Source of the DNA: Aminithiophilus ramosus
GTDB taxonomy: Bacteria > Synergistota > Synergistia > Synergistales > Aminithiophilaceae
Reading direction: 5' to 3'
DNA length: 64,000 bases
NCBI RefSeq assembly: GCF_018069705.1
Contig: NZ_CP072943.1
Location: 186,001-250,000, forward strand
Under the pieces are notes generated by a model. That model was not told the origin of the DNA, ran no database searches, and worked only from the letters and a program-made list of their open reading frames with translations. Within the stretch, counting starts at the first letter, position 1. Every line of letters starts with the position of its first letter. Both the position numbers and the translations under genes were made by a program. Shown in pieces: positions 26,473 to 37,669 of the stretch.

Positions 26473-28863
26473 CTACCGCTCTTTCCTGACGGCCAGAAGG
26501 AGGGGCAGGGCGAGAAGGAGCAGGGCGGGATCGAAGCCCGAGGCCAGACTGCACCCTCCAGAGCCTCCGCCGGTGGCGGGGTCGTCGGTGCCTCCCGTGC
26601 CCGCGGCGGCGCTGATCAGGTAGAGGTTGGCCTGGACTCCGGCCTCGTCCCTGTTGAAATCGAAGCGGCCGTTCTCCGTCAGCGTCGCTCCGAGAGTCGC
26701 CGCGGCGGCGGCGAGTTTCCCTTCGGCGACGACGGCGACGTCGCCCGAGGCGGTCCGGCCCAGAAGGACGTGGAGGCTCTCGCCGTCGACGGCGACGGAG
26801 AAAGCGACTTCGCTCTCGTCACTGTCGAGGCCGTAGTGGAGCCTGCGCCGGATTTCGCCGTAGCCGTCGCCGAGGGTCTCGGCCAGCTTGGCGTCGCTCA
26901 GGTCGGCGGGCATCGTCGTGTCGGGCAGGAGCGGGGCGCCTCCGGCATCGGCGACGGGAAGGGGCGCGGCGTAGGCGATGTCCTCGGAGACGACGAAGAA
27001 GCCGACGAGGGGCGTCTCGAGGAGGTCCTCGGCCATGGCGGCCCGGATCAGCTGCATGCGGGCCTTCTCGGCGTTCGTCGACGTTCCCTTCTTGTTCTTG
27101 GCCCGGAGGTCGAGGAAGTTGCTCCGGTAGAAGAGGTCGGTGGCGCGGAAGAGGAAGCTCTCTCCCGTCGACTTGAGGGTCACCCGGTACCAGGCGTCGT
27201 CGCGGGTCAGATCCTCCACGGCCGTGGCGTCCCGAGCGAGGGTGAGGTCACCGGCGGCGAGGCCCAGCTGGTCGACCCAGAATTCCTCCGGTCCCTCCGT
27301 GTTCCATCCCGTCTCGATGGTCACGTCTTCGGGGTGGAAGAGGCCGTCGGACCAGACGGGGGCCATCATCTGGGAGATGCGGAAGGCCGCCGACTGGCAG
27401 AGGCAGATCTTGCCGTCGGCCTCCAGAACGGACGTGGCCATGTCGAGGCTGGCGACCTTGCCCGAGCCGTCGAGGTAGTCGAGCACGTCGGAGTAGAGGA
27501 CCGTCTCGGCGCGGAGGGGCTTCGTCCCCTCCTGGATGTAGAAGCGTCCCGTGAAGGGAAGGGCCTTGGCCTTCTCGACGAGGTCGGCCTTCATGGTCTT
27601 CAGCTCGGCCTTCTCCTCGGCCGTGGCCGTTCCCTTCTTGTTCTTGCTCCGCAGCTCGAGGAACTCCTCGCTGAGGTAGTTGTCGCGGGCCACGAAGGTG
27701 ACGCTTTCGCCCGTCGACAGGACGGTGACGCGGTACCAGGCGTCGTCGAGGGTCAGCTCCTCCAGGGCCGTGGCCGAGCCGCCGATGCCGTAGGAGAAGT
27801 TCTCCACGCCCATCTCGTCGACGAGCAGCCCCTCGGGGCCGTCGGTGTTCCAGCCCGTCTCGACGGTCACGTCCCAGGAGCGGAAGACGCCGTCCTCCCA
27901 GAGGCCCGAGGCCATCTGGGCGACGCGGTAGGCCGTGGCCCGGCAGAGGCAGAAGGCGGTGGCGCCGTTCTCCTCCTCCATGCAGGCCTCCTCCATGTCG
28001 AGAGTCTCGATGGCGCCGTCCTTGACCTCCTGGAAGCGGAGGGCCAGAGAGTCGAGGAAGGGGAAGACCTTGTTGGCGACGGCGGTGGCGTGGTCGACGA
28101 CGACGAGGTTCTCGCCGCCGGCGATCAGATTGTCGAGGGCCTGATCGTAGAGCTCGAGGTAACGGTCATAGACGGCCTGCTGTTCGTCGTTGAGATTGCT
28201 CAGGCCGGGATCGGAGGCGAGGGCGAGGACCTGGCTGCGGACGTCGAAGTAGTCGTCGGGGAAGGCGCTGTCGGCGAGATGGAGGTCGAAGACGTCGCCT
28301 GTCGACAGGATCTTCGCCCGGATCGAGTAGTAGGAGCCGTCCTCCATGGCCGAGGGGAGGGTGGCGGCGTAGAAGTAATCCTCCATGTGGAAGGGACCCT
28401 CGCGGACGACGCGGTTGCCCTCGCCGTCGACGACGTAGGTGTAGCCTCCCAGAGTCTCGTCCCAGGTGTAGGGGTTGTAGCCGTCGTAGAGCCTGACGGA
28501 ACAGCCGAAGACCCATCCCATCTCGAGCTGCACGTCGTAGGGGCGCAGGACGCCATCCTCCCAGTAGTCCGCCAGGGCTTCCATGAAGCGGAAGGAGGTC
28601 CCGCGGTTGAAGCATGTTCCCTCTCCGTCTCCGTCGGGACCGAAGCTGTCGACCCAGAAGGAGCCCTGGGCGATGTCGCCGAAGGCGTACTCGTTGACCG
28701 TTTCGCCGGGGTGGGTCTGGACCTGGACGTCTTCGGCCGTTCCGGTGGCCGCCGACAGGACGTCGACGCCCGATGCCGTCGCCGATGCCGCCAGTGCGAA
28801 GGCGAAGGCGAGACATAGGGCACCCTTAAGGAAACCGTTGCGGAAGAACGATACCATTCTCAT
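26473..28863 (-). CDS. Synergist-CTERM surface protein with three FmdE-like repeats
   Basis: The 796-residue protein has a signal peptide (about residues 10-31, ending SATASG) and a C-terminal sorting signal: Gly-rich GGGSGGCS, hydrophobic LLLLALPLLLA and tail RKER. This matches the Synergist-CTERM layout and predicts processing near the Cys and surface anchoring. Between them are three related repeats starting at about residues 84, 302 and 484, with CFNRGTSFRF, CLCRATAYRV and CLCQSAAFRI respectively, then DV.(V/L)E(T/M)GW, a stretch ending in STG(E/D), and NKKGT in repeats 2 and 3. The repeats resemble FmdE-type metal-binding domains, but that match is by eye. The promoter carries the operator shared with the nik operon, so a role in metal handling at the cell surface is plausible. 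Start at ATG 28863; MVSFF at 28857 is an alternative. Confidence 0.75.
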   Translation of the reverse strand: MRMVSFFRNGFLKGALCLAFAFALAASATASGVDVLSAATGTAEDVQVQTHPGETVNEYAFGDIAQGSFWVDSFGPDGDGEGTCFNRGTSFRFMEALADYWEDGVLRPYDVQLEMGWVFGCSVRLYDGYNPYTWDETLGGYTYVVDGEGNRVVREGPFHMEDYFYAATLPSAMEDGSYYSIRAKILSTGDVFDLHLADSAFPDDYFDVRSQVLALASDPGLSNLNDEQQAVYDRYLELYDQALDNLIAGGENLVVVDHATAVANKVFPFLDSLALRFQEVKDGAIETLDMEEACMEEENGATAFCLCRATAYRVAQMASGLWEDGVFRSWDVTVETGWNTDGPEGLLVDEMGVENFSYGIGGSATALEELTLDDAWYRVTVLSTGESVTFVARDNYLSEEFLELRSKNKKGTATAEEKAELKTMKADLVEKAKALPFTGRFYIQEGTKPLRAETVLYSDVLDYLDGSGKVASLDMATSVLEADGKICLCQSAAFRISQMMAPVWSDGLFHPEDVTIETGWNTEGPEEFWVDQLGLAAGDLTLARDATAVEDLTRDDAWYRVTLKSTGESFLFRATDLFYRSNFLDLRAKNKKGTSTNAEKARMQLIRAAMAEDLLETPLVGFFVVSEDIAYAAPLPVADAGGAPLLPDTTMPADLSDAKLAETLGDGYGEIRRRLHYGLDSDESEVAFSVAVDGESLHVLLGRTASGDVAVVAEGKLAAAAATLGATLTENGRFDFNRDEAGVQANLYLISAAAGTGGTDDPATGGGSGGCSLASGFDPALLLLALPLLLAVRKER

Positions 28864-28997: not shown

Positions 28998-29053
28998 TTA
29001 GTTCGATGAATCAAACTGAGCCGATGATAAACAAAAAAGAGAATCATTGTCAA
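28998..29053 (-). promoter_or_regulatory. Promoter and operator of the surface-protein gene
   Basis: On the minus strand TTGACA (29053-29048), 18 bases and TATCAT (29029-29024) are followed at once by the operator at 28998-29019 (core TTTGATTCATCGAA). The dyad extends to 28991-29026 as 17-bp arms with two mismatches around the central TC. The same operator occurs at three other leftward promoters in the window. Confidence 0.75.
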
Positions 29054-29099: not shown

Positions 29100-29879
29100 T
29101 CAGAGGGGCGTCGCCGCATCGAGGAGACGCCTCGAATGGATGTCGCCGACGGCGTGGAGGCGGGACAGGTCGTCGACCCTTTCGACGATGCGGCCGTCGT
29201 TCATGAAGAGGACGGCGTCGCAGAGGTAGGTCACGGCCGTCAGGTCGTGAGTGATGAAGAGAAGGGAGAGCCCCTCGTCGCGGCGGAGCTCCGCCAGAAG
29301 GTCCATGACCTGGACCTGGACGGAGACGTCGAGGGAACTCGTGGCCTCGTCGAGAAGGATGAAGCGGGGGCGGGAGGCGACGGCCCGGGCGATGCAGATC
29401 CTCTGGAGCTGACCGCCGCTGAGCTGATGGGGACGGCGGCGGAGAAGATCGCTCGAGAGTCCCACCTTCTCCAGAAGGGCGAGAACCCGCTCCTTCCTGT
29501 CTCTTGCGCCGTCGCGGCCTTTTCTCAGCGGCTCGGCGATGATCTCCTCGACGGAGAAGCGGGGGTTGACGGAGGTGACGTAATCCTGGAAGACGACGCT
29601 GCAGGGGTGGAAGGAGGCCCCTCGCCCGGTGCCGTAGAGGTTCTTCCCGTCGACGGCGACCTCACCTCTGTCGGGTCGAAGGAGGCCGACGAGGACCCGC
29701 CCCAAGGTGCTTTTCCCGCTTCCGCTCTCGCCGACGATTCCCAGGCAGCATCCCTCTTCGAGGGTCATGGAGAGGCCCTGGAGGACGGGGTGCTGGCGGC
29801 GGTGGAGAAGCCCTCCCCTGCGGAAGGCGACGTGGATGTCAGAAGCCCGTAGCAGCGGGGGCGAGGAGGGGTTCCTCAT
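29100..29879 (-). CDS. nikE: Nickel ABC transporter ATPase NikE
   Basis: The 259-residue ATPase has Walker [10 protein letters not shown] (about residue 51), signature LSGGQLQRICIARA and Walker B FILLDEATSSLD with the switch ITHDLTAV. It belongs to the oligopeptide/nickel ATPase family and is the last gene of a nikABCDE set. It overlaps nikD by about 40 bases. Specificity is inferred from the NikA-like binding protein; the ATPases alone resemble DppF/OppF. Confidence 0.85.
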   Translation of the reverse strand: MRNPSSPPLLRASDIHVAFRRGGLLHRRQHPVLQGLSMTLEEGCCLGIVGESGSGKSTLGRVLVGLLRPDRGEVAVDGKNLYGTGRGASFHPCSVVFQDYVTSVNPRFSVEEIIAEPLRKGRDGARDRKERVLALLEKVGLSSDLLRRRPHQLSGGQLQRICIARAVASRPRFILLDEATSSLDVSVQVQVMDLLAELRRDEGLSLLFITHDLTAVTYLCDAVLFMNDGRIVERVDDLSRLHAVGDIHSRRLLDAATPL

Positions 29880-30708
29880 GGCGCGATCGCTCCTCTCGGG
29901 GGGTCGTCGCCTTTCTGAAGGCGTCGAGCAGCATGAGACGGGTGTCGAAAAGATGGCCGGTCCTCCGCGACCTGGGGGCGGAACAGATCCGCCTCAGGTC
30001 TCCCTGTTCGATGACCTCGCCCCTGTCCATGACGAGCAGGTCGTCGGCGATGCGGGCCAGGACGCCCAGGTCATGGGAGATGAAGAGGACCGAACAGCGC
30101 CGTTCCCTTCGGACTCGGTCGAACTCCTTGAGGATCTCGTCCTGCGTCACCGTGTCGAGGGCCGTCGTCGGCTCGTCGGCGATGATCAGGTCCGGACCGA
30201 GGAGGAGGGCCAGGCCGATCATGACGCGCTGGAGCATGCCGCCGCTCAGCTGGTGAGCGTACTGCCTGAAGACGTCGTCGGGATGGCGGAGACCCATGAG
30301 AGTCAGGGCGTCGAGACTGCGTCGTCGTGCCTCGGCAGGGGAGAAGGGGCCGTGCTGGCGGACCGTTTCGACCATCTGGGAGCCGATGGAGAGGAGGGGG
30401 TCAAAGGCCGTCATGGGGTTCTGGAGGATCATGGCGATTCCCGATCCCCGGAGCGCGCGCATCTCCTCCCGTCGCAGCGACAGGAGATCGCGGCCCTTGT
30501 AGGCGACCGTTCCGCTGACGCGGTACTCCGGGCCGAGAAGGCCCATGACGCTCTTGCAGGTCAGGCTTTTGCCGCTCCCGCTCTCCCCGAGGATCCCCAG
30601 GCAGGATCCCTTTCGGAGTTCGAAGGAGACGTCCCGGAGCAGCCTTTTTCCCTCAGTGCCGGAGCGGACCTCGACGGAGAGATTCTTGACGGCAAGCAGC
30701 GTTTCCAT
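29839..30708 (-). CDS. nikD: Nickel ABC transporter ATPase NikD
   Basis: The 289-residue ATPase has Walker [10 protein letters not shown] (about residue 40), LSGGMLQRVMIGLALL and [16 protein letters not shown], followed by FISHDLGVLARIAD. It forms the asymmetric ATPase pair with NikE. The start at 30708 lies 12 bases after the nikC stop region, with AGGAGA upstream. The C-terminal 30 residues (from SRRTGHLFDTRL) are variable. Confidence 0.85.
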   Translation of the reverse strand: METLLAVKNLSVEVRSGTEGKRLLRDVSFELRKGSCLGILGESGSGKSLTCKSVMGLLGPEYRVSGTVAYKGRDLLSLRREEMRALRGSGIAMILQNPMTAFDPLLSIGSQMVETVRQHGPFSPAEARRRSLDALTLMGLRHPDDVFRQYAHQLSGGMLQRVMIGLALLLGPDLIIADEPTTALDTVTQDEILKEFDRVRRERRCSVLFISHDLGVLARIADDLLVMDRGEVIEQGDLRRICSAPRSRRTGHLFDTRLMLLDAFRKATTPREERSRHEEPLLAPAATGF

Positions 30709-30720
30709 GGCAGTCTCCTT

Positions 30721-31539
30721 TCATGCCCTCTTGGGGTCCAGGATGTCTCTCAGGCTGTCGCCCAGGAAGTTGAAGGCCGAGACGACGGCCAGGATGGCCA
30801 AGCCCGGGGCGATCATCAGAGAGGGGGCCTGCATCATGACGTTCTTGGCCTCGTTCAGAATGGCGCCCCATTCGGCCGTCGGGGCCTGGACGCCGAGGCC
30901 CAGGAAGGAGAGGGTCGAGATGTTCAGGATGACCCAGCCCGTGTCGAGAGAGGCGAGGACGAGGACTTCCGTGGCGACGGCCGGCAGGAGATGGCGGAAG
31001 AGGATGAAGGCCGTTCCCGTGCCGACCGTCCTTGAGTAGGCCACGTAGCCCCTGTCGACGTACTGAAGGACCGATCCCCGGATCATGCGGGCGTACCAGG
31101 CCCATTTGACGAGGATGTTGGCGATGATGACGTTGGACATGCCCGGCCCCAGCATGCCGACGACGGCGAGAATCATCACCTGGCTGGGAAAGGAGAGCAT
31201 GACGTCGCAGAGTCGCATGAGGAGCTCGTCGACGGGGCCCTTGGCGTAGCCCGAGAAGAGGCCGATGGAGATGCCCAGCCCCAGGGTGCAGGCCATGGTC
31301 ACAAGGGAGAGGAGGACCGTGGGGCGGATGCCGTGGATCAGCCGGGAGAGGACGCAGCGTCCCAGGTGGTCCGTCCCGAAGGGGTAGGCGGCGCTGGGGC
31401 CCTTGAGCTTGGCCAGGATGTTGACCTTGTTGGGGTCGTTGAGGGGGAGCAGGTCGGCACCGAGCCCCAGGAGGATGACGGCGGCGATGAGGAAGAGGGC
31501 GATGGCGGCCGTCCTGTCGCGCAGAAGTTCCCGCACCAT
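30721..31539 (-). CDS. nikC: Nickel ABC transporter permease NikC
   Basis: The 272-residue permease has an N-terminal helix, the PFGTDHLGRCVLSRLIHG segment characteristic of DppC/NikC permeases, and the EAA-type loop region (GYVAYSRTVGTGTAFILFRHLLP). About six membrane spans are visible. The ATG at 31539 is preceded by GGAGGACC on the minus strand. It forms the channel with NikB, whose stop lies 2 bases upstream. Confidence 0.87.
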   Translation of the reverse strand: MVRELLRDRTAAIALFLIAAVILLGLGADLLPLNDPNKVNILAKLKGPSAAYPFGTDHLGRCVLSRLIHGIRPTVLLSLVTMACTLGLGISIGLFSGYAKGPVDELLMRLCDVMLSFPSQVMILAVVGMLGPGMSNVIIANILVKWAWYARMIRGSVLQYVDRGYVAYSRTVGTGTAFILFRHLLPAVATEVLVLASLDTGWVILNISTLSFLGLGVQAPTAEWGAILNEAKNVMMQAPSLMIAPGLAILAVVSAFNFLGDSLRDILDPKRA

Positions 31540-31541
31540 GA

Positions 31542-32474
31542 TCAGGTCCTCCTCAGTCGGGGATCGAGATAGCCCTGGAGAAGGTCCACGGCGAGGTTGC
31601 AGAAGACGAAAAGGAATCCCATGATCAGGATATAGGCCTGAATGACGGGGTAGTCGCGGTTGAAGATGGCCGAGATGCAGAGCCTTCCGATGCCGGGCCA
31701 GGCGAAGATGCTTTCGACGAGATAGGTCCCGGCGATGAGCTGGGGGACGCTCATGCCCAGGGCCGTCAGACAGGCGTGAAGCGAGTTGCGGAAGACGTGC
31801 CTCAGCAGGATGGCCGATTCGGAGAGGCCTCGGGCCCGGGCGTAGAAGACGTAGTCCTCGCCCATGTTCTCGACCATCTTGTTGCGGATGAGCCTGATGT
31901 AGGTCGATATGTAGGTCATGGAGAGGGTCAGGGCGGGCAGAATCAGGCTCTGCCAGGAGTCGCGGCCGCTCGTGGGCAGGATGTCGAGCTTGAGGGCGAA
32001 AAGCCACATGAGAAGCAGCCCCAGCCAGTAGTTGGGCATGGCCGTGCCGATGAAGACGAAAAGGCGCAGAGCCCGGTCGAGAGGGCCCTGGGGGCGCAGG
32101 GCGCAGACGATGCCCAGGGGAAAGCTGACGAGCAGGACGAGGGCCAGAGAGGCGGCGGCCAGTTCGAGCGTCGCCGGGAGGGCCCGGAGGATCTCGCCGC
32201 CGACGGTCCTGTTGTCGTTGGTGAAGGTGTTGCCGAAATCGAGGTGGAGGCTTCTCCATAGCCATCGGACGTAGCGGAGGAGGAAAGGATCGTCGAGGCC
32301 CAGCTCGGCCCGCATCCCCTCGACGGCCTCCTCGGTGGGCACGATGTCGTTGATCCTCAGGATGACTTCGGCCGGATCGGAGGGAATGAGAGCGACGAGG
32401 CAGAAGGCGAAGAAGGAGACGCCCAGAAGGAGAGGGACGGCCAGCAGAAGACGTTTCAGGAAATAGCTTCGCAT
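31542..32474 (-). CDS. nikB: Nickel ABC transporter permease NikB
   Basis: The 310-residue permease begins MRSYFLKRLLLAVPLLLGVS, a typical first helix of DppB/NikB permeases, and has the EAA loop (YARARGLSESAILLRHVFRNSLHA). Six membrane spans are expected. It is separated from nikA by a 67-base spacer that holds a hairpin, which fits lower expression than the binding protein. Confidence 0.87.
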   Translation of the reverse strand: MRSYFLKRLLLAVPLLLGVSFFAFCLVALIPSDPAEVILRINDIVPTEEAVEGMRAELGLDDPFLLRYVRWLWRSLHLDFGNTFTNDNRTVGGEILRALPATLELAAASLALVLLVSFPLGIVCALRPQGPLDRALRLFVFIGTAMPNYWLGLLLMWLFALKLDILPTSGRDSWQSLILPALTLSMTYISTYIRLIRNKMVENMGEDYVFYARARGLSESAILLRHVFRNSLHACLTALGMSVPQLIAGTYLVESIFAWPGIGRLCISAIFNRDYPVIQAYILIMGFLFVFCNLAVDLLQGYLDPRLRRT

Positions 32475-32489
32475 CGGAAAACTCCTCCC

Positions 32490-32523
32490 CTCTTCCCCCC
32501 CTCGCGACGGAGGAGGGGAAGAG
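32490..32523 (-). terminator. Hairpin between nikA and nikB
   Basis: CTCTTCCCC (32490-32498) is complementary to GGGGAAGAG (32515-32523), a perfect 9-bp stem. It lies directly after the nikA stop on the transcribed strand and has no T-run; a role in 3'-end protection of the nikA message or partial termination is likely. Confidence 0.55.
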
Positions 32524-32541
32524 ACGGACGGTCCCGGGCCG

Positions 32542-34122
32542 CTAGTCGGCCAGGGACATCTTCTCGAAGGGAACCTCGAACTGCGAGGGATTGTAGGTGA
32601 CGCCGAGGACCCGGTCGCTGAAGATGGCCCTGTTGCGCTCGTAGGTCAGGGGCAGGTAGACGGCCTCTTCATGGAGCGTCGTCAGGATGGAGGTGAAGAG
32701 CTCCTGACGCCTGTCCGCGTCGGTGGTGACGAGGACCCTGGCGATCCGGTCGTCGAGGTCGGCCTTGCAGGCCAGCCCCTGCTGGGCGGCGTAGTCGCCG
32801 TAGACGACGGTTCTCATGGCGCTGAGGAAGGACTGGGGATCGTAGGGCGTCCCCCAGGAGATGTTGAAGACGATGTCGAAGTCGCCCGCCTTCTGGCGGT
32901 CGCGGTAGGACTGCTCCTCTTCGCCGAGGATCTTCAAGTCGACGCCCAGCTCGGCCCAGAGGCTCTGGAAGTATTCGGAGAGGGTCTTCTCGGAGACGCT
33001 GTTGCTGTTGTAGAGGAGCGTCATCTGGAGCGTCTCGCCCTGGCGGCTGCGGAAGGGCCGGCCCGCCTCGCGGACCCAACCGGCCTCGTCCAGGAGCCGT
33101 CCTGCCGCCTCGAGATCGAAGGCGTAGGACTTGAGGTCGACGTCGCAGTAGGGGACGGTGCGGGCAAGAACGGTGTCGGCGGGGCTTTCGATGCCGTTGA
33201 AGATCCCCTCGGAGAGGGCCTTCTTGTCGACGGCGTGCTGAAGGGCCTGGCGGACCTCTCGCTGGGTGAGGGCTCCCTTCGTCGTGTTGAGAAGGAGCAT
33301 GCGCGTCGAAACGGGATCGGAGAGAGAGGTGACGAAGCCCTTCTTTCCCCGGAAGCGCTCCAGCGTGTCGGCGTCGATCATGTTCTTGCCGTAGATCAGG
33401 TCGATCTCGCCCTTCTCGAGGGCCAGAACGCGCGTCTGGTTGTCGGGAATGACGCGGACCTTGATGGTCCTGATGGAAGGTTTCTCACCCCAGTAGTTCT
33501 CGTTGCGGACGAAGGTCGCCTGCTGATCGACGACGTTCTCGGCCAGGACGTAGGGGCCCGTGCCGATGTGGCCCGTCACGCCTTTTTTCGTCGTCCCCTC
33601 CTTCATGCACCGGGGAGAGATGAAACGCATGGGGCGGGTGACGCCCAGCTCGGTGAGCATGGGGAAGTAGGGCTCCTTGAGGCGGATCCGGAGGGTGTGG
33701 TCGTCGACGGCGTCGACGCCCTCCATGAGACGGACCATTTCCAGCCAGCCGTGGCGTTCGATGTTGTCCAGGACGGCGTCGAAATTGGCCTTGGCCGCCG
33801 CGGCGTCGAAGGGCTCTCCGTCGGAGAAGGCGACGTCCCGGCGGAGATGGAAGGTGTAGACCCGTCCGTCGTCGGAGATCTCCCAGCTCTCGGCGAGCCA
33901 GGGCTCGATGCCGTCAGGGGTGATCTTCACCAGGGACTCGTAGAGAAGGTTCTGGGCGTAGAGCTCGCCGCCGTAGAGGTGGGGGTTCAGGTCGCGGATG
34001 TCGCGGAAGTTGACGTAGACGAGGGTCTCCTTTTCCGAGGCGGAAGAGGGAGCGGCCAGGGAGAGAACTCCCAGGAAGAGCGATGCCAGGACGAGCGACA
34101 GGGCGAGACAGACCTTCTTCAA
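32542..34122 (-). CDS. nikA: Nickel-binding periplasmic protein NikA
   Basis: The 526-residue protein has a signal peptide (LALSLVLASLFLGVLSLAAPSSA) and is recognisably NikA: RDLNPHLYGGELYAQ-like start (IRDLNPHLYGGELYAQN), FVRNENYWGEKPSIRTI, DLIYGKNMI, LLNTTKGA and WGTPYDPQSFLSAMR all parallel E. coli NikA. It should bind nickel held by small organic ligands in the periplasm. In E. coli NikA the metal complex is contacted by His416 and aromatic residues; the corresponding segment here keeps W-G-x-P-Y-D-P but not the exact His, so the bound complex may differ. A short GCCCCC-GAA-GGGGGC hairpin (34149-34163) precedes the gene. Confidence 0.88.
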   Translation of the reverse strand: MKKVCLALSLVLASLFLGVLSLAAPSSASEKETLVYVNFRDIRDLNPHLYGGELYAQNLLYESLVKITPDGIEPWLAESWEISDDGRVYTFHLRRDVAFSDGEPFDAAAAKANFDAVLDNIERHGWLEMVRLMEGVDAVDDHTLRIRLKEPYFPMLTELGVTRPMRFISPRCMKEGTTKKGVTGHIGTGPYVLAENVVDQQATFVRNENYWGEKPSIRTIKVRVIPDNQTRVLALEKGEIDLIYGKNMIDADTLERFRGKKGFVTSLSDPVSTRMLLLNTTKGALTQREVRQALQHAVDKKALSEGIFNGIESPADTVLARTVPYCDVDLKSYAFDLEAAGRLLDEAGWVREAGRPFRSRQGETLQMTLLYNSNSVSEKTLSEYFQSLWAELGVDLKILGEEEQSYRDRQKAGDFDIVFNISWGTPYDPQSFLSAMRTVVYGDYAAQQGLACKADLDDRIARVLVTTDADRRQELFTSILTTLHEEAVYLPLTYERNRAIFSDRVLGVTYNPSQFEVPFEKMSLAD

Positions 34123-34200
34123 ATAAAACGACCTCCTCGATCGATTCTGCCCCCGAAGGGGGCGCGTTCTCCTCTTTTCCGACTTTTAAAAAAGAGGGAA

Positions 34201-35415
34201 TCAGGCTGGGGATTGAGGGACGACGCTCCTCCGGTTCGCTCTCTCCGACGTCGCCGCGTGGCGGCCGAGGAGCGCGGCGGCCATCAGCCCGACGAGGGTG
34301 AGACCGCCGATGAGCGAAAGGGGATGGAGCTCCCAGAGCCAGGCCGTCAGGGCCCCTCCCGAGGCGCCGGCGACGCCGGCGAAGAGGTAGAAGACGCCGA
34401 AGCAGACGCCCTGGCGCCGCTCGCCTCCCATTTCGGGGATCATGCTCAGGGCCGGCGGAAAGACGGTCATCATGCCCAGCGTCAGCAGCGTCGTCGTGAC
34501 GAGGGTGTTGACGGAGACGGGTCCGACGGATCCGACCCGCAGAAGCAGGAAGGGAAAGGCCAGGGCCATGAGGCCCATGCCCGCCGCCAGGCGCAGGGGG
34601 CGTGAAAAACGCCCCACGACGAAGCGGGAGAGAGGCATCTGGAGCGCGACGCTCAGAAGGGCCGAGAGGGTGAACAGGGCCGCCACGGAGCCGTCGTTGG
34701 GGGAGCTTAGGGGCAGCAGAAGGTAGAGCTGGTTGAACATCAGATAGTAGGCCGACATGAGAAGGCAGAAGATCAGGAAGTCCCTTCGCCGGAAGACGGC
34801 GACCCAGTCGGTCAGAACGGGAAGGGAGGAGTTCCTCTCCGTCCCCTCCAGGCGGGGGAGGTGGAACCACTGGAGGAGGAGAAGAAGAAAAAAGACGGCG
34901 GCGGCGACGGCGCAGAGAGTGGAAAATCCGTATCGGAGCAGGGCGAGGCCGCAGAGGGGCCCCGCAAGGGCGCCGGCCTGGCTGGTCACGTTCTGGAGGG
35001 CGTAGACGCTCTCCCTCTCGGGGTGATCCTCGGTCAGCCTGGCCAGAAAGGCCTGGTAGGCGGGAGAGAAGAGGGCTCCGGCCAATCCCGTGAGAAAGGC
35101 GGCGCCGACGACGGCCCAGGGACGGAGGGCGACGCCGAAGAGGCCGAAGCCCAGGACCCTCAGGGCGCAGCCGGCGAGGATGACCGTCTGGTAGTTGAAA
35201 CGGTCGGCCAAGGTTCCGCCGACCAGGAAGAGCCCCTGCTGGCTCAGCATGCGAAAGCCCATGACGAAACCGGCGAAGGCGGCCGACAGCCCCAGATCCT
35301 CGGTGAGATGGCGCGTCAGGTAGGGCAGAAGCATGTAGAAGCCGACGTTGAAGCCCAGATTGTTGACGAGAAGGACCTTGACGGGAAGGGGGAGGCTCAG
35401 GGCGAAGGAGAACAT
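34201..35415 (-). CDS. MFS transporter
   Basis: The 404-residue protein has twelve probable membrane helices and the MFS loop signature GGTLADRFNYQTVI (about residues 67-80). Its start at 35415 lies within the end of the ATP-grasp gene (19-base overlap) with GGAAAGG upstream, so the two are translationally coupled. Directly downstream is nikA, 79 bases away. In this setting it most likely exports, or imports, the product of the ATP-grasp ligase. The direction is inference. Confidence 0.85.
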   Translation of the reverse strand: MFSFALSLPLPVKVLLVNNLGFNVGFYMLLPYLTRHLTEDLGLSAAFAGFVMGFRMLSQQGLFLVGGTLADRFNYQTVILAGCALRVLGFGLFGVALRPWAVVGAAFLTGLAGALFSPAYQAFLARLTEDHPERESVYALQNVTSQAGALAGPLCGLALLRYGFSTLCAVAAAVFFLLLLLQWFHLPRLEGTERNSSLPVLTDWVAVFRRRDFLIFCLLMSAYYLMFNQLYLLLPLSSPNDGSVAALFTLSALLSVALQMPLSRFVVGRFSRPLRLAAGMGLMALAFPFLLLRVGSVGPVSVNTLVTTTLLTLGMMTVFPPALSMIPEMGGERRQGVCFGVFYLFAGVAGASGGALTAWLWELHPLSLIGGLTLVGLMAAALLGRHAATSERANRRSVVPQSPA

Positions 35416-36707
35416 GACGACCTTTCCGACGCGCCGCCGCACCCGCAGGATCGGGGGCGGATGAGGGCCGTCAGGCGGGAGAGGGCCTCCTCGGCCATCC
35501 TCCCCGCGCCCAGGCCTTCCCGATCTTCGGCGAGGACATGGCCCAGGTAGCAGTCGTTGTCGTCCGGCCGGAGGACTTCCGTCCCCGGCGCAGAGAGAGA
35601 GCAGCGGACCACGCCGGGGCTGGCTTTCGCCTCCGCCTCGCCCCGAAAGCCGGCGAGAATCCCCTCGGAGGAGGGAAGAAGGAAGGCCACGGCGGCGCTC
35701 TTCGGCCGCTCCGCCTCGACCGCTTCTCTCGGCTCCTCTCCCAGGGCGACCTCGACCATCTGCGTCAGGGGGTTCAGCCCCGTCACCCGCTCGACCAGCT
35801 CGGAGATGTAGTTGCCGCCGATGCGGGGATTCATCTCGATGATGCGCGGTCCCGACGACGTCATGCGGATCTCGACGTGGGCCGTTCCCTCGACGTAGCC
35901 CATGGCCGAAAGAGCTTCGGCGGCGTGGGCCCCGATGGCTCGGGCCGATTCGGCGGGGAGGTCGGCGGGGAACATGTGTCCCCGCTCGACGAAGCCCCCC
36001 TCGCCGCCCAGCCTCTTGTCGGTGATGCCCGACAGGAAGATCTCCCCCCGACGGGCGCAGCATTCGACGCTGAACTCCTCGCCGGAGAGGTACGATTCGA
36101 CGAGGGCGCCCGAGGCTCTCTTTCTCCCCCTCGGGTTGGCGGGGTGAGAGAGGACGGCCCCGATGGCCCTTCGCATCTGATCGACGGAGTGGACCTTGCG
36201 GACGAGGGTGCTGCCGCTCATGTCCAGAGGTTTGACGATGGCGGGCAGACCCGTCGCTCCGGCGGCCGCCTCGGCCTCCTCTTCCGACAGGGCAAGGAAG
36301 AAGGAGGGGCCGGGCAGTCCCTTACGGCGGAGGGCCTGGCGCATGAGGTGTTTGTCCGTCATCGAGGCGAGGACCTCGGCGGGGGAGGAGGGGAGGCGGA
36401 ACCTCTCGGCGACGGCGGCGACGAGGGGGAGATAGCCGTCGCAGCTGCTGATCACGCCCGAGATCGCCTCGTCGCGGAAAAGCCCCTCGCAGAGGGAAAG
36501 GAAGGAGGCCTCGTCGCGGGTATCGCAGCGCAAGACGCGATCGGCCAGGGCCACGACGGGGTGGAGGCCTCCGTCGGGACTGTAGCGGTTATAGAAATCG
36601 GGGTCGTCTGTCGCCAGAATGAAGCGGTGACCGAGCTCCCTGATCTTGCGGGGCAGCAGGATCCCCGAGGCGAAACGCCAACTTTCGATCATCAGCAGCG
36701 TCTTCAG
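35397..36707 (-). CDS. ATP-grasp carboxylate-amine ligase
   Basis: The 431-residue frame from ATG 36692 starts MIESWRFASG. A better start is a CTG at 36707, five codons earlier (CTG-K-T-L-L-M-I-E), which completes the first beta strand and has AAGGAGG exactly 8 bases upstream. The protein has the pre-ATP-grasp fold, then LPAIVKPLDMSGSTLVRKV (ATP-binding loop, about residue 155), VESYLSGEEFSVEC, and the Mg/ATP site AHVEIRMTSSGPRIIEMNPRIGG. Such enzymes join a carboxylate to an amine through an acyl phosphate and include L-amino-acid ligases and siderophore synthetases. Position at the head of the MFS-nikABCDE run suggests it makes a small peptide-like metal chelator. Confidence 0.82.
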   Translation of the reverse strand: MKTLLMIESWRFASGILLPRKIRELGHRFILATDDPDFYNRYSPDGGLHPVVALADRVLRCDTRDEASFLSLCEGLFRDEAISGVISSCDGYLPLVAAVAERFRLPSSPAEVLASMTDKHLMRQALRRKGLPGPSFFLALSEEEAEAAAGATGLPAIVKPLDMSGSTLVRKVHSVDQMRRAIGAVLSHPANPRGRKRASGALVESYLSGEEFSVECCARRGEIFLSGITDKRLGGEGGFVERGHMFPADLPAESARAIGAHAAEALSAMGYVEGTAHVEIRMTSSGPRIIEMNPRIGGNYISELVERVTGLNPLTQMVEVALGEEPREAVEAERPKSAAVAFLLPSSEGILAGFRGEAEAKASPGVVRCSLSAPGTEVLRPDDNDCYLGHVLAEDREGLGAGRMAEEALSRLTALIRPRSCGCGGASERSSCSPSP

Positions 36708-36778
36708 CGCGAGAACCTCCTTTTCGGGGGAGAGGGCCCGTCGGCTCCGATGGCGGGGCGTGAAGGCCGAAGGCGTCC

Positions 36779-36838
36779 TTAGTTTGATGAATCAAACCGA
36801 GGAGCACAAGAGTAACGGTTGCTGCTGTGACTTGTCAA
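36779..36838 (-). promoter_or_regulatory. Promoter and operator of the ATP-grasp/MFS/nik operon
   Basis: Minus-strand TTGACA (36838-36833), 18 bases, TACTCT (36814-36809), then the operator at 36779-36800 (core TTTGATTCATCAAA). The operator occupies the expected start point and early transcribed region, so a repressor bound there would block initiation. This is the only clear promoter found upstream of the seven-gene run. Confidence 0.78.
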
Positions 36839-37082: not shown

Positions 37083-37222
37083 AAGTAATGGGGCCTCGCG
37101 AGAGGCCCCATTACTTCTTCGGGGGGGGGTGGTGATGGGAACATTCTGTCTTTCCTGCATGGGCAGAAGGAAAGAGGCAGAAAAGGAGGAAGGGATGGAA
37201 TCTTTGTTTGATCTCTCAAACT
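37083..37222 (-). ncRNA. Putative structured small RNA, copy 1
   Basis: A transcript from the promoter at 37257-37229 would run about 140 nt leftward and end in a perfect 15-bp stem with a four-base loop (37083-37116). It also contains a CTTTCCT/AGGAAAG hairpin (about 37150-37173), a run of nine C, and CCTCCTTTTC (37189-37180), complementary to a Shine-Dalgarno region. A second copy lies 440 bp away. Three base pairs of the terminal stem differ between copies by compensatory changes, which supports a folded RNA. No convincing reading frame with a ribosome site is present. Confidence 0.6.
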
Positions 37223-37528: not shown

Positions 37529-37669
37529 AGAAGTGACAGGGCCTCGCGGGAGGCCCTGTCACTTCTTCGGGGGGGGGTGGTGATGGGAACGTTCTGCCTT
37601 TCCTGCATGGGCAGAAGGAAAGAGGCAGAAAAGGAGGAGGGGACGGGATTTTGTTTGATCTCTCAAACT
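37529..37669 (-). ncRNA. Putative structured small RNA, copy 2
   Basis: This is a paralogue of copy 1 with the same order of elements: operator, CCTCCTTTTC (37637-37628), CTTTCCT/AGGAAAG hairpin, nine C, and a terminal 17-bp stem (37529-37566). Relative to copy 1 the stem carries A-T to G-C, T-A to C-G and G-C to A-T replacements that all keep pairing. The identical C-run and anti-Shine-Dalgarno segment suggest these are the active parts. Alternatively the units are duplicated attenuators. Confidence 0.6.

Follow-up and report, generated by a model that had tools for sequence, protein, structure and literature searches.

The window analysed here, a stretch of 64,000 nucleotides (nt) from the 3.1 Mb chromosome of the Synergistota bacterium Aminithiophilus ramosus (NZ_CP072943.1, positions 186,001 to 250,000), carries seven intact, co-directional minus-strand genes running from 36710 to 29100, which encode an ATP-grasp ligase of the L-amino-acid ligase (LAL) type, a transporter of the major facilitator superfamily (MFS) and a NikABCDE-type importer. 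We consider it fairly probable that these genes support a metallophore cycle under iron-type control, with LAL-type synthesis, MFS export and NikA-type re-import; the metal is most likely iron, while zinc, nickel or a broad range of metals are possible. An earlier note on this DNA had described a ligase gene overlapping an MFS gene, followed by nikABCDE in the same direction, an arrangement that was confirmed for all seven genes, and had read it as a nickelophore system that makes, exports and recovers its chelator; the metallophore architecture held up, the neighbours of the ligase family being of metallophore type, and nickel as the metal did not. The genes, whose stretch extends to 36838 when the ligase promoter and its palindrome are included, are as follows:

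35397..36710, minus strand: ATP-grasp ligase, LAL type (Pfam domains, fold model, start taken from homologues)
about 35424..34201, minus strand: MFS exporter (MFS_1 125 bits; closest curated model MdtH, under its cut-off)
32542..34122, minus strand: NikA-type substrate-binding protein (TIGR02294 615 bits against a cut-off of 393; His416 replaced by Tyr)
31542..32474, minus strand: NikB-type permease (NF045469 Ni/Co Opp1B 453 against a cut-off of 380; TIGR02789 431.9, slightly under 447)
30721..31539, minus strand: NikC-type permease (NF045473 Ni/Co Opp1C 372.7 against a cut-off of 350)
29839..30708, minus strand: NikD-type ATPase (best model CntF, of staphylopine uptake, under its cut-off)
29100..29879, minus strand: NikE-type ATPase (TIGR02769 256.5, under the cut-off of 332.55)

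The NikD equivalog model was not reached (269.6 against a cut-off of 318.7), and neither was that of NikE. Reading frames overlap between the ligase and MFS genes and between the NikD- and NikE-type genes, with gaps of 78 nt before the NikA-type gene and 67 nt before the NikB-type gene. All seven genes occur in the same order in another Synergistota genome (G040), and a further one (G037) keeps the ligase, the MFS gene and the NikA-type gene up to the end of its contig, so that the arrangement is not due to chance. This conserved order, together with the single operator that heads all seven genes, argues against a secreted dipeptide or antibiotic-like metabolite whose gene merely happens to lie upstream of a separate Nik-type importer; LAL enzymes such as BacD do make an antibiotic dipeptide and are accompanied by MFS exporters, but the ligase family described below has metal-type genes under metal-type boxes as its neighbours, and we regard this explanation as very improbable. 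A decayed form of the operon was also observed in G017 (L012:8089-10112), where a ligase remnant of about 70 residues is followed by pieces of nikD and nikE.

Directly after the -10 element of the ligase promoter lies a palindrome of 16-18 bp, TTAGTTTGA-N4-TCAAACTAA, of which four sites were seen in the window against 0.01 expected:

36781..36798, no strand: putative DtxR-type operator of the ligase operon, immediately downstream of the promoter -10
29000..29017, no strand: same operator, upstream of the gene for an FmdE-like surface protein
37652..37669, no strand: same operator, upstream of candidate small RNA A
37205..37222, no strand: same operator, upstream of candidate small RNA B

Across the whole genome, AGTTTGA-N4-TCAAACT with up to 2 mismatches was found at 11 places, and the reversed control at 0. 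Eight promoter regions carry the operator, namely those of the ligase operon, the FmdE-like gene, small RNAs A and B, a flavodoxin, a double-ZinT lipoprotein, a methyltransferase-ABC operon and dtxR-feoA-feoB (43 nt before dtxR), and three more places (126320, 264458 and 1385587) are less certain. In six of the eight, a TTGAC-type -35 and a -10 element are followed straight away by the operator, the layout being unclear at flavodoxin and dtxR. Because the operator is common to dtxR-feoAB and to flavodoxin, an iron-sparing gene, we predict that it defines an iron-type DtxR regulon; under metal scarcity, a repressor of the DtxR family would come off the promoter operator and the seven genes would be transcribed, as the position of the operator and the content of the regulon suggest.

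A survey of the operator in other Synergistota yielded 32 places, 29 of which were inspected (the exceptions being one place in G162 and the places in G173 and G174). Seven lie directly before dtxR or feoA (G029, both sites of G030, G035, G151, G153 and G154) and one lies before the G037 ligase, while chance probably accounts for most of the 1-mismatch matches, the reversed control likewise matching many genomes. The DtxR proteins beside the operator carry AC-x-x-EH (Cys-x-x-Glu-His), a Cys-Glu-His metal site that we take to be the iron-type DtxR pattern, together with an aspartate near the N-terminus that is presumably MntR-like; judged from these residues, the metal sensed is likely iron, and this aspartate is the reason why the assignment is not certain. 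Three of the operator places in the window genome were noted for their genes. At L066:6499-12999, a second DtxR-family gene lies near a FeoB-like gene and two genes for small periplasmic-type proteins, with a 2-mismatch operator (G000:C1:264458) inside the group. At L026:196-7486 (G000:C1, about 2160195-2167485), the operator-bearing operon of methyltransferase and NikA-like ABC genes is split by a transposase-like gene and has LarB and LarC homologues directly upstream; a link between its methyltransferase and that of the Streptomyces clusters was dropped, as the similarity was weak and generic. The lipoprotein at L024:5974-7137 has two ZinT-type stretches and shares its regulon with flavodoxin and feoAB.

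The ligase scored 74.5 bits against ATP-grasp_4 (cut-off 27) and 51.3 bits against LAL_C2 (cut-off 29.4). Its start codon is probably the CTG at 36710, which precedes the first ATG (36692) by 18 nt: AAGGAGG stands 8 nt before CTG AAG, and TTG occupies the same codon in the two closest homologues. A structure model built from a 35-sequence alignment (mean predicted local distance difference test score, pLDDT, of 91.2) had 3vot, BacD and RizA as the nearest solved folds, and E280, E292, N294 and R296, which in this fold we take to bind metal and carry out catalysis, were unchanged in 35/35 aligned homologues. The L-amino acid ligases BL00235, BacD and RizA resemble the window ligase in fold (TM-score 0.70-0.81 by query length) and share its C-terminal LAL domain at about 15-23% identity; to our knowledge, none of the three has a metal role. 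The protein is thus probably an L-amino-acid-ligase-like enzyme, for which amide-bond formation is predicted by family. With this chemistry, it would link a pair of small carboxylate/amine metabolites through an amide bond, giving a chelator which the MFS protein would export, and the metal would be captured outside the cell.

In Escherichia coli NikA, His416 is the axial nickel ligand, and the hexadentate chelate Fe-EDTA leaves it unengaged, according to the sections of PMC11091072 available to us. Alignment with E. coli NikA placed a Tyr at the His416 column of the window protein, the column being located by counting from Trp398 and Tyr402, residues named in those sections (PMC11091072); Trp100, Arg137, Trp398 and Tyr402 are retained. 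Among 17 NikA places compared in the phylum (G026 is partial, with its column unread, and the G037 column was read from a separate piece of contig), Tyr occupies this column in the ligase-linked NikA of G000, G021, G037 and G040 and in G091, five genomes in all, and His occupies it at 10 places of other or second systems, including the second NikA of G040. No ligase or MFS match was present in the 8.6 to 15 kb around six of the His-type systems (G018, G036, G040, G105, G107 and G109). By this substitution, a Tyr-type NikA fits the uptake of a saturated chelate, and the Tyr gives no indication of which metal is bound; the protein would take up the loaded, coordinatively saturated complex with no histidine ligand needed, and NikBCDE would then import it.

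These observations bear directly on the proposal that the ligase product chelates nickel, that the MFS protein exports it and that NikABCDE recovers the complex for nickel enzymes. NikA, NikB and NikC score as nickel-type, the genome encodes an orphan NikR, and the LarB and LarC homologues lie near another operator-bearing operon. However, the regulon contains flavodoxin and dtxR-feoAB, His416 is lost from the NikA of this very operon, and a search of the region upstream of the ligase gave no NikR box of the E. coli type, the best candidate having 4 of 12 positions wrong, although the box of this host may differ. NikA-type proteins, moreover, bind Fe-EDTA and Ni-aspergillomarasmine as well, as stated in the portions of PMC11091072 we could draw on. 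We therefore judge nickel to be an improbable cargo.

The iron-type metallophore cycle gains a wider context from relatives of the ligase beyond the phylum. A scan of genome contigs yielded 252 confirmed relatives; the counts below refer to the best 80 of these 252, neighbours being counted by tblastn within 9 kb of the ligase without gene calls, and some other gene calls came from simple callers. DUF364 was found near the ligase in 77/80 loci, an SbnA-like pyridoxal phosphate (PLP) enzyme in 76/80 and an MFS gene in 74/80, together with an uptake module that was either a family-5 binding protein (54/80) or a TonB receptor (16/80); 10 loci had neither, 7 of them on cut contigs. The co-occurrence check that the earlier note had proposed, whether the ligase/MFS pair is commonly found without nik genes, gave a split answer, with MFS and a family-5 binding protein together in 52/80 loci and a TonB receptor in the 16 just mentioned, and it follows from these two counts that the uptake module beside the ligase is exchangeable. 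The only receptor tested (L084) passed the TonB-siderophore model (287 against a cut-off of 223.5), and the only PLP enzyme tested (L074) was closest to SbnA, at 235 bits under a cut-off of 350. The window MFS protein shares 42-47% identity with the best ligase-adjoining MFS matches of other phyla. For DUF364, a role in metal chelation has been proposed from structure and genome context, as far as the consulted text of PMC2954201 goes. In three Massilia genomes (L084, L088 and L093), the ligase and DUF364 matches fall within one 686-residue reading frame, suggesting that the two function jointly. We read the window operon as the Synergistota branch within a broader family of metallophore type that spans other phyla. 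In the ligase tree (which leaves out L096 and L130, with internal stops, and L071, a near-copy of the window), the Synergistota and Kiloniellales ligases form a separate clade (100/98), and the ligase of G107 groups with those of Pseudomonadota and Bacillota, placements that are unsure because the branches are long. A published description of the set of ligase, DUF364 and SbnA-like genes was not found in the open-licence full-text literature.

A Zur-like box lay within 400 nt upstream of the ligase in 55/79 of these loci, compared with 3/79 for a stretch of the same length inside the gene (at most 4 mismatches of 15; L075, whose contig ends at the ligase, was left out). Its consensus, TAnCGATAATCnTTTTCATTG, fits the Zur motif of S. 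coelicolor/Streptomyces, tGaNNatSatNNtCa, and the actinobacterial taaTGaNAANNNTTNtCANta, both as given in the part of PMC5472717 seen by us. The 24 loci without such a box comprise 2 from Synergistota, 17 from Pseudomonadota or Acidobacteriota, where a more distant upstream promoter is possible, and 5 from actinobacteria. Upstream of the relatives, neither iron boxes of the IdeR type nor nickel boxes of the Nur type did better than shuffled sequence, only Zur/Fur-like boxes being enriched. Given these boxes, the cluster in actinobacteria has the look of a metallophore cluster that responds to zinc, and the same could hold for the window operon, with the product and metal presumed for the actinobacterial relatives and a Synergistota DtxR that senses zinc or several metals. 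The boxes of the relatives and the double-ZinT lipoprotein of the regulon favour this zincophore, but flavodoxin and feoAB belong to that regulon too, the genome has Fur-family regulators that might handle zinc, one of them adjoining genes for an ABC transporter, and the Synergistota ligases form a clade of their own without DUF364 and SbnA-like partners. On balance, a zincophore seems unlikely.

Several observations weigh against the metallophore cycle under iron-type control. The ligase was matched in just 7/185 genomes of the phylum, namely two of the same species, G037 and G040 (55% identical), G107 (38%) and the weak or fragmentary G133 and G017; in G107, the ligase is accompanied by an MFS gene and a family-5 ABC importer, the binding protein of which shares just 25% identity with the window NikA. 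The connection of the operator to DtxR is positional, and the site at the dtxR-feoAB operon of this genome is 2 mismatches off. Besides iron, zinc is indicated by the ZinT protein in the regulon and by the Zur-like boxes of the actinobacterial relatives, and the window NikA lies well above the cut-off of the model for the nickel protein. The genome of G091 has a NikA with Tyr yet gives no ligase match, so that the change at position 416 is not strictly tied to the ligase. Finally, at Synergistota loci where DUF364 and the PLP enzyme are missing nearby, the product might differ from that of the wider family.

The last point concerns the number of enzymes required. DUF364 and the PLP enzyme were both missing within 9 kb at two Synergistota loci and at one locus from Kiloniellales, on a contig that stops at the ligase, and G040 and G107 likewise lack both near the ligase. 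Elsewhere in the window genome, DUF364 was found at five places, whose coordinates coincide with no operator place, and no SbnA-type gene exceeded the cut-off. The absence of these partner genes may reflect a minimal pathway, or the genes may lie elsewhere. The single biosynthetic enzyme put forward in the earlier note accordingly survives for Synergistota only, as a hypothesis motivated by the lack of the two usual partners nearby, and does not extend to the relatives in other phyla, nearly all of which have both. As a tentative possibility, a single LAL-type enzyme would make an amide chelator from ordinary metabolites, the iron complex of this one-enzyme siderophore would return through a nickel importer that has lost its His, and the whole would belong to a DtxR regulon with twin RNAs; as part of the same tentative reading, the Synergistota form would be a stripped branch of the widespread metallophore family of ligase, DUF364 and SbnA-like enzyme.

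Among known systems, the staphylopine genes CntKLM-CntE-CntABCDF likewise place an MFS exporter and a NikA/Opp-type ABC importer around a small metallophore, and the best model for the window NikD is CntF; the window NikA reached 536 bits against the CntA model, whose cut-off is 800, and the seven genes include neither a nicotianamine-synthase-like gene (CntL) nor an opine dehydrogenase gene (CntM), with one ATP-grasp ligase instead. The NikABCDE nickel importer is similar in gene order and NikA family, and the window system differs from it by the Tyr at 416, the iron-type operator and the ligase and exporter at its head. SbnA-type aminopolycarboxylate metallophores include staphyloferrin B, EDDS and EDHA; relatives of the window ligase adjoin SbnA-like enzymes, while the window operon has no SbnA-like gene. 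In vibrioferrin synthesis, PvsA is an ATP-grasp ligase and PvsC an MFS exporter, and nonribosomal-peptide-synthetase-independent siderophore (NIS) synthetases are also used. The likeness to this pathway, compared by description rather than by sequence, is the ATP-grasp ligase in siderophore synthesis. Vibrioferrin is cited as a case of siderophore synthesis using an ATP-grasp peptide ligase in the passages of PMC4431377 at hand.

Other members of the predicted regulon lie on both sides of the operon. The space separating the ligase promoter from the next gene contains two 122-nt tandem repeats that share 89% identity, each preceded by TTGACA-N17-TATACT and the operator, and the FmdE-like protein is encoded beyond the NikE-type gene:

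37529..37655, minus strand: candidate small RNA A, about 125 nt (fold z -7.6; 17-bp GC-rich end hairpin, perfect 17-nt inverted repeat)
37083..37208, minus strand: candidate small RNA B (fold z -7.0; perfect 15-nt inverted repeat)
26473..28863, minus strand: secreted, Synerg-CTERM-anchored protein with FmdE-like repeats (FmdE 20.1 bits, cut-off 22.9; Synergist_CTERM 20.5, cut-off 22.5)

Both candidates fold much more stably than shuffled sequence and end in a GC-rich hairpin, in which both arms of the stem differ between RNAs B and A with pairing kept, and both have unpaired C-rich runs of the CCUCC type, which could pair with ribosome-binding sites. The twin RNAs matched no Rfam family over its gathering score and are present in 2/185 genomes, of a single species; the iron-controlled small RNAs PrrF, arranged in tandem, and FsrA, which is C-rich, are analogues only. 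The protein at 26473..28863, which contains about three FmdE-like repeats, is a possible candidate for a co-regulated metal-binding surface protein.

If correct, these findings would add a class of metallophores built on one ATP-grasp ligase, found in several phyla and controlled by metal regulators of two unrelated types, and would provide a case of a NikA importer no longer tuned to coordinate nickel directly, which would caution against annotating NikABCDE as nickel-specific. The defined set of ligase, DUF364 and SbnA-like genes would also make the product of the family isolable from culturable Streptomyces or Lysobacter.

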